The notes: a model not told the origin generated them from the sequence alone. Shown: positions 590-3,815, counted from the first letter of the stretch. The stretch: DNA of 37,498 bases from Gemmataceae bacterium (GCA_019694755.1 JAIBBI010000037.1:1-37498), one strand, 5' to 3'. Numbers and translations: made by a program.

Positions 590-596
590 GTTCGGC
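590..596 (+). repeat. Orphan attC R'-like box (GTTCGGC)
   Basis: GTTCGGC followed by a purine-rich GGCGGAGGCGGAGG run, the same arrangement as at 1987, 2382 and 3200. The left half of a palindrome is not recognisable upstream; there is only a small hairpin at 550-570 and an AGAGGT near 571. It could be the right edge of a decayed attC or an attI-like insertion point. It marks the left border of the repeated architecture. Confidence 0.4.
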
Positions 597-611
597 GGCG
601 GAGGCGGAGGT

Positions 612-1037
612 ATGTTCGCAATCCGTTTGCTGACCCCGAATCGGCTTGGGGCTGACGGCGAACGGCTGGGCGAGATAGTCGTCGGCGAGTTCCGCGAGGG
701 CTTTGTTTGCCACCTCGCTGGCGCAGTCTCAAACCTGGAAGCGAGTTGGCGTCCGGAACTGGCGGCTTTGGTTCGTGGCGCGCCGGTGGCCATCCTTCAG
801 CACGACCCGCGGGTCGCGTGGCTCGTCTATCGCGAGGGCCGTGAGTGCTTCGTGCAGCAGCGGCTCTCGCTCGATGGGACGTTTGGGGGCCTTGTGCCGC
901 GGGTCGTCACGAATGAGGACGGGGACGCAGTCAGCACATGGGTCACGAGCCTCGCAGCGGTACAATGGTTTCTCGACGCCGAACCGGGTAGCCCAGACGC
1001 CGAACAAGGTGCTGCACCTAACCCGGCGGGCATTTAG
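612..1037 (+). CDS. Hypothetical protein, cassette gene 1
   Basis: 141 residues from ATG at 612. I preferred this over an upstream in-frame ATG at 564 because a GGAGGCGGAGG run sits immediately before it. The product starts MFAIRLLTPN and looks soluble and globular (alternating hydrophobic strands, WLVYREGRECFVQQRL in the middle), with no signal peptide or membrane segment. I do not recognise the family. Its last residues (NPAGI) and its TAG stop are encoded inside the following attC-like palindrome (999-1095), as is common for integron cassette genes. The gene starts 22 nt after the GTTCGGC box at 590. Confidence 0.6.
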   Translation: MFAIRLLTPNRLGADGERLGEIVVGEFREGFVCHLAGAVSNLEASWRPELAALVRGAPVAILQHDPRVAWLVYREGRECFVQQRLSLDGTFGGLVPRVVTNEDGDAVSTWVTSLAAVQWFLDAEPGSPDAEQGAAPNPAGI

Positions 1038-1095
1038 GCTTTCCAAAGGCCATAGCTCCCCGCGCCCGCCGGGCAGGAGAGCTTCGTCGTTCTGC
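999..1095 (+). repeat. attC-like site A
   Basis: 97 nt imperfect palindrome. Left outer box GCCGAAC (999-1005), 5 nt spacer, GCTGCACCT, AA, then CCCGGCGGGC. Right side GCCCGCCGGG, C, AGGAGAGC, TTCGTC, then GTTCTGC (1089-1095). The inner CCCGGCGGGC/GCCCGCCGGG stem is perfect over 10 bp. The left inner box carries an extra G relative to the right one, as attC sites carry an extrahelical base. The right outer box has one change from GTTCGGC. Confidence 0.65.
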
Positions 1096-1107
1096 GGCAG
1101 GTATACG

Positions 1108-1527
1108 ATGGTTAACTTGCGACTGCCCATCCTGTGTTTGACCAGTTTGATGGCCGCGTCCGGCTGTTCAACGAGAGAAGGTACGGCTGTGGCAAAAGAC
1201 AACCAGTCAATCCAGGTTGGCGGCCTCTACGCCTCCGAGAACAAAGATGGTACTTGGCGCGTTACGAAGGTGCTCGCAGTCGATGAATGCGCCGTGCATC
1301 TCCGCACTTATGCCAACAAGTTTCCGGAATTACCAGCGGATGTTGATCCAGCTACGCTCACGCTTGGCAGAGTCGGTGATCCAGGCGGATTCGGCATTGG
1401 TCATTATCCCGTGACAAAGGAAGGCTTCTTGAACGAAAATCGCGTCCTCATCAAAGTCGTGCCGGTAATGGAAGAAGAACTCGAAGGATACAGGTACTAT
1501 CTCGAAGCTATGAAGGAAGATCGCTAA
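1108..1527 (+). CDS. Putative lipoprotein, cassette gene 2
   Basis: 139 residues, ATG at 1108, thirteen bases after the GTTCTGC box of attC-like site A. The N-terminus MVNLRLPILCLTSLMAASGC is a short positively charged leader, a hydrophobic core and a lipobox-like ASGC with the modifiable Cys at residue 20. This predicts a membrane-anchored exported lipoprotein. The mature part contains VGGLYASENKDGTWRVTKVL, a strand-rich pattern found in small secreted planctomycete proteins, and ends ...EGYRYYLEAMKEDR. The function is unknown. Codon use is slightly less GC-rich at third positions than in neighbouring genes, which fits a separate origin. Confidence 0.65.
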   Translation: MVNLRLPILCLTSLMAASGCSTREGTAVAKDNQSIQVGGLYASENKDGTWRVTKVLAVDECAVHLRTYANKFPELPADVDPATLTLGRVGDPGGFGIGHYPVTKEGFLNENRVLIKVVPVMEEELEGYRYYLEAMKEDR

Positions 1528-1905
1528 CCGTTCTCATGGTCTGCCGGCTCAAGAGACAATGAGGTCCCGGGGGCGGATTCCTCCACCGTCTGATGTTTCA
1601 CCCGGCACCGGCGATCCCATCTAACACTTTTGGCGTTCAAACGGGCTGCGATCGTCCGGCAGCGTCGAGCTCGTTGACGAACACCGTCCTGGCATCCAAA
1701 TCGACGCCACAGTAACATGGGGGTTGCGCCTGGTACACACGCATGGTCCCGGCTTCCGTGGTGACGGACCGGCCTGATCCCGCATCGTGGTCGTTGAGCT
1801 TCGGCTCGACTGAAGATTCCATGCCGGAGACCGGGCCACCCGTGATCTCGTTTTACCTTGGCGACAGGCCCGGCCCGTCGCCATCAAGGCCATGACAAGT
1901 ATCCA
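1528..1905. other. Long 3' part of cassette 2, no intact gene
   Basis: About 380 nt between the lipoprotein stop and the next attC-like site. It is much longer than the gene-to-attC distance in the other cassettes. The only recognisable content is the leftward IS110 transposase scrap at 1637-1744. The sequence on either side of it may be further remnant of the same element, but I cannot define its ends. Confidence 0.5.
1637..1744 (-). pseudogene. IS110-family transposase N-terminal remnant
   Basis: On the minus strand an ATG at 1744 opens MRVYQAQPPCYCGVDLDART, followed by VFVNELDAAG, and stops after about 35 residues. The YCGVDL.ART..v..LD pattern is the start of the DEDD (RuvC-like) domain of IS110-family transposases, where the D of GVDL is the first catalytic acid. 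The rest of the domain and the C-terminal Transposase_20 part are missing, so this is a fragment. The IS1111 branch of this family is known to target attC sites, which makes its presence in a cassette array notable. The assignment rests on a short match. Confidence 0.45.
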
Positions 1906-1993
1906 GCCGATGCAGCAGACCGGCGGGGCATGTAGGCTATCCCAGTGTTCAAGCTCTGTCCGCCCCGCCGGCAGGTGAGCTTGATCGTTCGGC
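1906..1993 (+). repeat. attC-like site B (left half degraded)
   Basis: Right half intact: GCCCCGCCGG, C, AGGTGAGC, TTGATC, GTTCGGC (1987-1993). The inner stem CCGGCGGGGC/GCCCCGCCGG is perfect over 10 bp. The left outer box is not recognisable; GCCGATGC at 1906 and GATGCAGCAGACCGGC line up only partly with the GCTGCACCTAACCGGC of other copies. Followed by GGTGGAGGGCG and the GTG start of the next gene. Confidence 0.55.
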
Positions 1994-2011
1994 GGTGGAG
2001 GGCGTCGGGGC

Positions 2012-2314
2012 GTGACAGCCGAGGATGAGTTGCTCCGGCTGCTGGATGACGCGGCGGCCGTCGTGGTTGGTTACGGCGAGATGAAACTGTGTTGCGGGTT
2101 CGACACCGCGGCCGAGTTCGCGGCCGAGTTGCGGTCTCTCCGGGAGCGGGTCGCCCGACAGGACTGGTCAGCCCTCGGCCCGTTGGTCGGCATTTTCGCC
2201 CCGACGGGTGCCTGGGACGACGGCGTCGGCGCCCCCGGTATGCACCTCGCCAACAGTGTCATTGGGGTGCTGGATCGGATGGAGTGGTCGCGCCGAACCG
2301 GGCGCTGCACCTAA
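2012..2314 (+). CDS. Hypothetical protein, cassette gene 3
   Basis: 100 residues from a GTG at 2012, preceded by GGAGGG and only 18 nt after the GTTCGGC box of site B. The product (MTAEDELLRLLDDAAAVVVG...) is acidic and helical at the N-terminus with a Cys pair (KLCCGFDTAAEF), and has no signal peptide or membrane segment. It resembles no family I can name. Its TAA stop lies inside attC-like site C (CACCTAA), so the site supplies the end of the reading frame. Confidence 0.55.
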   Translation: MTAEDELLRLLDDAAAVVVGYGEMKLCCGFDTAAEFAAELRSLRERVARQDWSALGPLVGIFAPTGAWDDGVGAPGMHLANSVIGVLDRMEWSRRTGRCT

Positions 2315-2388
2315 CCGGCGGGGCATGATTCGTTTTCCCTGACTAAAGCCCCCCGGTGCCCCTCGGCAGGTGAGCTTGGTCGTTCGGC
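2292..2388 (+). repeat. attC-like site C
   Basis: 97 nt, the best conserved outer boxes: GCCGAAC (2292-2298) and GTTCGGC (2382-2388), perfect complements over 7 bp. Between them lie CGGGC spacer, GCTGCACCT, AA, CCGGCGGGGC, then a variable centre and GCCCCTCGGC, AGGTGAGC, TTGGTC. GCT-G-CACCT against AGGTGAGC pairs fully if one G is left unpaired. Same length as site A. Confidence 0.7.
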
Positions 2389-2479
2389 GAAAGAGGGCGA
2401 ACCTGGACGGGTGTATCGGCGTCTGACAAGATGGAGTCTGGCCTGCCAACCCCGTCCGCGATTGCTGGAGTAGCTGACG

Positions 2480-3127
2480 ATGTTCGCGAGCGTCACGCCC
2501 GATAGGTTGCTCGCCATGTCCGAGCAGGAACTTCGGTGGCTCGACAACTTGAAGAAGGCGTTCTACGAAAGCGACCGCGCGTACACTGACGGCCGAGCCC
2601 ACAACCACTGTTTCCCGGAGTTGTGCAAGGCCGTCGATACGGCCAAGACGCTCCGCCGGTCTCTCCGCGGGGAGGACGTATCTTCCCGTGACAATAAGAA
2701 GCGGTTTGTGGAGTTCCTCAACCTTGAACTGCCGTCCCCGGAGTCGGGCGGTTTCCAAGTTCAACTCGTCGATGCCCGGTCCGGGACGCCGGTGACGTAC
2801 TCGTTCGCGCAACTGGTCTACGACATCCGGTGCATGGTCCACGAGAACGAGAACTTGAACGCCGCGGAAGCGCCGAACTACCACATCCTGATCGACTGGT
2901 CGCAGCCGCACATGTTCTACTTCGGGTCGATCGCCGACGGCCGACTGACTTGTAACGGACAAATGATCTGGGAGCGGGTGCGGCAGATCTTGGCGAAGTT
3001 CATTACCGGCATTGACGGGATGATCGCGTATGCCAAGATCGTTGCCGGACAGCAAGAGGGTTCGTTCAGCATCACGATTTCGCCGCCGCTCGGCTCGGTC
3101 CGCCCGGGTCGTACGGGCCAGGGGTGA
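2480..3127 (+). CDS. Hypothetical protein, cassette gene 4
   Basis: 215 residues, ATG at 2480 with GGAG nine bases upstream. The product starts MFASVTPDRLLAMSEQELRW. A helical, charged first half (to about residue 75) is followed by a mixed region with FQVQLVDARSGTPVTYSFAQ and HILIDWSQPHMFYFGSI. It is soluble, without signal peptide. A helix near residues 105-120 (LVYDIRCMVHENENLN) resembles small HEPN-like nuclease or toxin-antitoxin proteins, with an 'R....H' spacing, but this is only a suggestion. It starts about 90 nt after site C, farther than the other cassette genes. Confidence 0.6.
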   Translation: MFASVTPDRLLAMSEQELRWLDNLKKAFYESDRAYTDGRAHNHCFPELCKAVDTAKTLRRSLRGEDVSSRDNKKRFVEFLNLELPSPESGGFQVQLVDARSGTPVTYSFAQLVYDIRCMVHENENLNAAEAPNYHILIDWSQPHMFYFGSIADGRLTCNGQMIWERVRQILAKFITGIDGMIAYAKIVAGQQEGSFSITISPPLGSVRPGRTGQG

Positions 3128-3137
3128 GGTCCCGGGC

Positions 3138-3206
3138 GCCAAACCAGGCACAGCACCTGACCCGGCCCGCATAGCCCTGCCGGGCAGGTGAGCTTAGTCG
3201 TTCGGC
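3138..3206 (+). repeat. attC-like site D (short form)
   Basis: 69 nt. Left box GCCAAAC (3138-3144), CAGGC spacer, ACAGCACCT, GA, CCCGGC; short loop; GCCGGG, C, AGGTGAGC, TTAGTC, GTTCGGC (3200-3206). The variable inner part is shortened compared with A and C while the outer boxes and spacers are kept, which is how attC sites vary. Confidence 0.6.
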
Positions 3207-3222
3207 GAAGGAGGGCGCACGT

Positions 3223-3741
3223 GTGTACGAGGTGGATGATCGGGACACAGTGGTCGAACTGCACGACGCCCCCAGCCCAGACGTTGGCGCTCCCCTGCCG
3301 CATCTGATCTGCGACGAGCATCACGTTTTGTTGGCTTACCTCGTCAACGAGCCTGACCCGGCATGGGACGGCAGCTACGTCAATGTGGTCGGCCCGGACT
3401 CGGACGGCTACCCGGTCGCGATCGTCCGCTTCGAGAGACCGTATGCGCACATGCTCGGGCCGCCCAACGACGAGGCGTTCTACGGCCACCCGCTAGCCAA
3501 CCGCGGTCTCGAACCCTACGCCGTCTTTGAAGTCAAGGATTCGTCGTGGTTGCGGCGTCTGGAGCGGATGAATGCCGTCCACCCGTATCATGACCGAGAG
3601 CGGTTCCTGGCCGGTCGCCGCCACTTCGTGTTCGCGTTCCACGACACGATGTTCGAGTGCATCGCCCAAGGGTTCACGTTCGAGGTTGTGCGTGGGTCGT
3701 TGCGGTCGGTTCTGCCTCGCATGTTGGCGTCGCTGGAGTAA
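3223..3741 (+). CDS. Conserved hypothetical protein, cassette gene 5
   Basis: 172 residues from GTG at 3223, with GAAGGAGGG as ribosome binding site directly attached to the GTTCGGC box of site D. The protein reads MYEVDDRDTVVELHDAPSPD, then HLICDEHHVLLAYLVNEPDP, YVNVVGPDSDGYPVAIVRFE and a His-rich stretch YHDRERFLAGRRHFVFAFHD. It resembles small proteins of unknown function seen in planctomycetes and actinobacteria. No signal peptide. The conserved Asp/His/Glu residues could bind a metal, but no known catalytic motif is present. Confidence 0.65.
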   Translation: MYEVDDRDTVVELHDAPSPDVGAPLPHLICDEHHVLLAYLVNEPDPAWDGSYVNVVGPDSDGYPVAIVRFERPYAHMLGPPNDEAFYGHPLANRGLEPYAVFEVKDSSWLRRLERMNAVHPYHDRERFLAGRRHFVFAFHDTMFECIAQGFTFEVVRGSLRSVLPRMLASLE

Positions 3742-3748
3742 AGGCGCC

Positions 3749-3815
3749 GCCGAACCAGTCGCTGCACCTAGTTTCGGCCCATTGGGCTTTCAGGGTGACA
3801 ACAGGGACGTTTCGC
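3749..3815 (+). repeat. attC-like site E (degenerate)
   Basis: The left half is intact: GCCGAAC (3749-3755), CAGTC, GCTGCACCT. The right half is altered: GGCCC ATT GGGC stem, AGGGTGAC, then GTTTCGC (3809-3815), with a nine-base instead of six-base spacer. The total of about 67 nt matches site D. It ends the repeated block, and nothing after it resembles a cassette. Confidence 0.4.

Follow-up and report, generated by a model that had tools for sequence, protein, structure and literature searches.

The window, i.e., the entire stretch of 37,498 nucleotides that was analysed, makes up contig C64 in its entirety, in a MAG assembly of 5.6 Mb and 335 contigs (genome G000). Between positions 590 and 3770, it contains five ORFs that are all on the plus strand, as are the other features of the array, and that are separated by attC sites A to E, in agreement with the original prediction of five small same-direction genes lying between palindromic sites. 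The leftmost feature is GTTCGGC (590..596), the R'-type 5' border of cassette 1, which is the exact complement of the R'' box (GCCGAAC) in site A; no attC body was found upstream of it in the window by the covariance model described below. The cassette 1 ORF (612..1037, 141 aa) has its stop codon within site A (999..1095), which possesses R'' GCCGAAC, L'' GCTGCACCT, L' AGGAGAGC and R' GTTCTGC and scores 79.1 bits. The cassette 1 protein weakly resembles the CdiI_N immunity domain of Pfam (PF18228, E 0.0005, which is under the curated cut-off). The called ORF of cassette 2 (1108..1527) encodes 139 aa with no match in Pfam or NCBIfam and is followed by ~370 nt of non-coding DNA and then by the degraded site B (1899..1993, 40.4 bits), in which R'' is gone and an L'' of the GCAGCA subtype faces L' AGGTGAGC. 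The stop codon of the cassette 3 ORF (2012..2314, 100 aa; no family match in Pfam or NCBIfam) is found within site C (2292..2388, 97.1 bits, E 1.8e-22), an intact site with R'' GCCGAAC, a 5-nt spacer, L'' GCTGCACCT, L' AGGTGAGC, a 6-nt spacer and R' GTTCGGC. The two remaining ORF calls are those of cassette 4 (2480..3127, 215 aa) and cassette 5 (3223..3741, 172 aa). Between them lies site D (3138..3206, 54.7 bits), with R'' GCCAAAC, L'' ACAGCACCT, L' AGGTGAGC and R' GTTCGGC, while the array ends with half-site E (3749..3770, 15.9 bits, E 0.054), which consists of R'' GCCGAAC, a spacer and L'' GCTGCACCT and whose right half is missing.

The ORFs start 13–19 nt past the R' box, except that of cassette 4 (92 nt), and stop within the next site or a few nt before it, except that of cassette 2. 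No integrase gene is found on the contig, and an intI gene with attI beside the array is thus not part of the window.

Anatomy of the attC sites

The right half AGGTGAGCTTNGTCGTTCGGC is found four times in the window with ≤3 mismatches, always within 1075–3206, compared with 0 copies expected from shuffled sequences. Sites A, C and D all have complementary outer boxes, with R'' ending in AAC and R' beginning with GTT. The boxes originally predicted for these three sites are present, although only site C carries them fully intact: site A deviates in L' (AGGAGAGC) and R' (GTTCTGC), and site D in L'' (ACAGCACCT) and R'' (GCCAAAC). Partial degradation of B and E was also correctly recognized, given the lost R'' and mixed L subtypes of B and the left half to which E is reduced, and the looped-out extra G in L'' is confirmed. 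A second extra base, A, is found six paired bases further in than the L'' G in site D and most related sites.

A covariance model was built from 17 sites of the same genome, three of which are window sites; B and E were excluded from it. Scoring with such a model, a check named in the original prediction, placed all five sites (C 97, A 79, D 55, B 40 and E 16 bits) above the next-best window position (12.9 bits). In the alignment of these 17 sites, which come from contigs C64, C68, C97 and C109, the spacers are 5 and 6 nt. The loop of the sites is ~49 nt. Stem cells are paired in 88% of cases, compared with 28–47% with slid partners, 11 pairs are changed on both sides, and the covariation score is 0.255 vs. 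0.099 after shuffling. The co-changing pairs of L'' and L' are CACCT/AGGTG, CAGCA/TGCTG, CAGTG/CACTG, CAGTT/AACTG and AAGCT/AGCTT. Over 141 sites, 90.6% of the cells are paired, in an alignment that is itself fitted to the model. Single sites fold as DNA moderately better than shuffled sequences (z about -0.5 to -2.7; for site C, -2.65 on the top strand and -2.21 on the bottom strand). Given these moderate z values, it is comparison, rather than folding energy, that carries the argument.

Integrase genes and related arrays

In the same genome, a half-site pattern gave 16 matches vs. 1 for the reversed control pattern, and the covariance model located ~50 sites that are in same-strand clusters, mainly on C109 and C97, whose arrays are longer and better preserved than that of the window. 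A few single attC-type sites are on other contigs. An integrase with the IntI-specific extra helix, which had been proposed as something to look for, is encoded on C68 (1762–2862, 366 aa). It matches TIGR02249 with 355.5 bits (cut-off 265), and the best match among proteins of solved structure is VchIntIA/IntI4 (2A3V, E 1.6e-71), in an alignment that spans the extra-helix region and the catalytic residues. The reading frame is open and contains all of these residues, assigned as R, K, H, R, H and Y as is established for tyrosine recombinases. This intI is divergent from the adjoining cassette, and attC of the same type lies beside it. The intI-adjacent cassette starts with GTTAGGT (L017:1619-1613) and ends with R'' ACCTAAC, which pairs with the beginning of this same cassette rather than with the subsequent GTTCGGC; such pairing is a trace left by insertion of a circular cassette at attI. 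A second tyrosine recombinase, with a 534-aa open frame and not of IntI type, is found ~0.8 kb from the end of the C97 array (G000:C97:28255-28788).

Compared with VchIntIA, the MAG IntI has W in place of H240 and R in place of Y210, and the loop before H240/H241 is ~25 aa longer. The residues of its T12'' and G20'' pockets are thus non-canonical, and these differences together with the longer loop mean that its activity is not assured. Other Gemmatales IntIs retain HH, and most of them retain KY.

Among 41 related genomes, including that of the window, attC-type sites were identified in 30 (E ≤ 1e-4) and IntI above the cut-off in nine. An intI gene directly adjoins arrays of the same type in G003, G009, G017 and G019, and fragments of intI do so in G008 and G031. 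The gene is divergent in the window's own genome, G003 and G019 and is co-directional with the cassettes on contigs C501 and C1483 of G017 and in G008 and G031. When the phylum was sampled evenly, only nine of the 149 genomes gave matches at E ≤ 1e-8, which indicates that this attC subtype is concentrated in the order to which the window belongs; scattered matches of the pattern in unrelated taxa are probably due to chance. In G019, ~28 near-identical attC sites of 112–114 nt are distributed over several small contigs (L105-L108), like a large array of Vibrio type with a homogenized repeat. In two other cassette-rich genomes, intI carries one in-frame stop (G017:C1483:11497-12438 and G011:C303:2632-3573), which suggests that the integrase decays while the arrays persist.

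Since four of the five sites are changed or reduced, the stretch may be a decaying remnant. The most extreme form of this explanation, which is a sub-case of the cassette-array reading, is a fossil of true attC ancestry that no integrase can move. Consistent with it are the mismatches or losses in A, B, D and E, a contig without intI and the non-canonical T12'' and G20'' pockets of the only IntI in the genome. We nevertheless consider a dead array rather unlikely, as site C is fully intact, sites B, C and D still have GTTCGGC together with the right half, C97 and C109 of the same genome bear arrays that are longer and better preserved, and the IntI frame is open with all catalytic residues.

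Cassette borders and homologous cassettes

The organization of the cassettes was evaluated over 231 related sites. All 188 pairs of neighbouring sites are on the same strand, and none are on opposite strands. In 153 of 175 cassettes, the longest ORF runs in the direction of the cassette, compared with 76 of 173 control segments, and the ORFs start at a median of +17 nt after R' and stop at a median of -7 nt before R''. The R' box is GTTCGGC in 158/231 sites and the R'' box is GCCGAAC in 156/231, while GTTAGGC, GTTAGGT and GTTGGGC are other R' boxes of the same or related arrays. The departure from GTTRRRY that had been noticed at the fourth base, which is C in GTTCGGC, is therefore the common state of these sites. 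The GTTRRRY consensus is common but not strictly defining, and the box varies among attC sites.

Because a comparison of all boxes is biased by the majority box, the border test was restricted to the minority boxes, and it has no discriminating power within the window, where nearly all boxes are GTTCGGC. Among 28 minority-box cassettes, R'' is perfectly complementary to the cassette's own 5' border in nine and to R' of its own site in none. A better match to the border was found for 17 of the 28, and a better match to the own-site R' for 0. Shuffling the borders gave a mean of 0.34 matches and reached nine in 0 of 10,000 trials. Read from the sequences, the pairing of R'' with the border is the predicted footprint of circular cassettes that are cut at G/TT, and the borders (nine own-border matches vs. 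zero) behave as if they were joined there, at the joint position named in the original prediction.

The same observations bear on dispersed palindromic repeats, REP-like or other, that lie between genes. The attC-type sites are imperfect palindromes in intergenic positions, and a few single ones are indeed on other contigs of the genome, but such repeats are a highly improbable source of them. Instead of being scattered without relation to ORF borders, which is the pattern that had been expected of REP-like elements, the sites form long same-strand clusters (188 vs. 0) with one site per ORF and fixed borders at the ORF ends, they adjoin intI in several genomes, and their R'' is complementary to the border upstream instead of to the same site, something that REP models do not predict. 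The clustering, the single strand and the pairing at the borders therefore led to the rejection of REP elements. Transcription terminators or processed RNA hairpins within one operon are similarly very improbable: GC-rich hairpins do follow each stop codon of co-directional genes, but the stems are without a U-run, the outer boxes and spacers are conserved beyond pairing, the extra base and the spacing are fixed, some ORFs stop inside the sites, no Rfam family matches at the sites, and the pairing between R'' and the border is left unexplained.

A further indication of integron cassettes is that homologues of window cassettes lie in separate arrays of other genera. A homologue of cassette 5 in G110 occupies exactly one cassette between sites L225:1371-1481 and 1972-2067, and a homologue of cassette 2 in G059 is a single cassette between sites L229:1903-1993 and 1391-1486; no other window cassette was found at these two loci. 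At 36–37% identity (tblastn), these homologues indicate that gene families are shared between different arrays and do not date an exchange. Homologues of cassette 4 (79%, 77% and 60% identity) are found in three genomes of the family only, among 102 in the order; those of 77–79% are in two genomes of one other genus, and one of them is followed by only a weak site (E 0.008). The distribution is patchy and distinct for every window cassette. The interpretation as an integron array is upheld by the IntI in the genome, the clustered same-strand sites, their placement at ORF borders, the cassette-border pairing and these homologous cassettes. The array thus consists with high confidence of integron cassettes, and its portion in the window is a CALIN or a fragment that is partly decayed. 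That 590–3770 is an integron cassette array, forming part of a chromosomal integron and locally a CALIN (attC sites that lack a neighbouring intI), is in our judgement almost certain.

Each cassette consists of one small ORF and its downstream attC. In the integron model, an IntI supplied by another locus of the same genome or by another cell would cut R' at G/TT, after which the circular cassette could be joined to attI or another attC. Actual single-strand recombination by the MAG IntI, its activity on sites that are partly decayed and gene expression are inferences.

A proposed attC dialect of planctomycetes

Integron arrays of this kind are already known, and reports of integrons in Planctomycetes go back at least to 2008 (PMC2426708). 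A Planctomycetes attC model was built from sites found by HattCI (PMC8352920), which argues against a blanket miss of GTTCGGC sites by standard searches, a miss that the original prediction had considered possible. With sedentary chromosomal integrons and CALINs, including planctomycete ones (PMC2426708, PMC8352920, PMC9668308), the arrays described here share a TIGR02249 IntI that includes the additional-helix region, attC sites in tandem, a single small ORF in each cassette, G/TT cassette borders and intI-less arrays elsewhere in the genome, but differ in that the commonest R' is GTTCGGC, not GTTRRRY, and that the second extrahelical base of the bottom strand is C, not G. The class 1 attC of aadA1 (T-N6-G) has the same R''/R' pairing, L''/L' stem, 6-nt extrahelical distance and first base T, whereas its second extrahelical base is G, compared with C here, and its stem sequence is unrelated. 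As in Treponema-type integrons (PMC3607928), intI is in the direction of the cassettes at G017 C501 and C1483, G008 and G031, whereas the window's genome, G003 and G019 have the usual divergent layout. What the arrays add is a well-documented integron-bearing lineage, i.e., Gemmataceae and its neighbours, with large cassette pools whose genes are almost wholly of unknown kind, and the T-N6-C dialect is worth the attention of specialists.

The extrahelical bases of the bottom strand are T-N6-C in site D. The same holds for 90 of the 116 sites that could be scored, and C occupies the second position in 106 of these 116. T-N6-C was also found in ten other planctomycete genomes with a finder that does not specify the bases, the genomes having been picked by the covariance model or by kinship; one of the ten is a distant planctomycete with R' GTTGGGC. 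The same script returned T-N6-G for the aadA1 control site, as published. According to Larouche and Roy, most attC sites have G at the second base, and blaVIM-2 was the sole cassette example with C known to them (PMC3053210). In assays on a mutated site, several integrases excised T-N6-C at least as well as T-N6-G, or better (PMC3053210), while substituting the second extrahelical base had mostly small effects (Bouvier et al., PMC2727003). Our literature search, whose scope ended before the supplements of PMC8352920 that belong to its Planctomycetes attC model, found no paper on this base for planctomycetes, and the usage of T-N6-C looks under-described.

The motif GGAGG occurs within 16 nt after R' in 83/231 sites vs. 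~19 in shuffled sequences, as if each cassette carried a ribosome-binding site at its 5' end. The nine bases that directly follow R' tend to be GGCGGAGGG (window positions 590–604, 1987–2001 and 3200–3214 and the 231 related sites). We tentatively propose, at somewhat less than even chances, that planctomycete integrons have an attC dialect of their own, with a nearly fixed T-N6-C, an R' that is mostly GTTCGGC in the window's order and a shared cassette 5' end GTTCGGCGGCGGAGGG with the ribosome-binding-like GGAGG. If this is true, the pool of cassettes in this dialect could, given the published excision of T-N6-C sites, show unusual mobility or be attuned to an IntI lineage of its own. A phylum with C as the rule, compared with mostly G elsewhere, would provide a natural test of the role of the second extrahelical base. 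Co-variation of the IntI pocket with the extrahelical C was considered and dropped, as other Gemmatales IntIs retain the HH pair and KY and their sites still have C. In a distant planctomycete, 28 near-identical attC sites with R' GTTGGGC and T-N6-C are found within 19 kb (L234, G119:C8:39500-58500).
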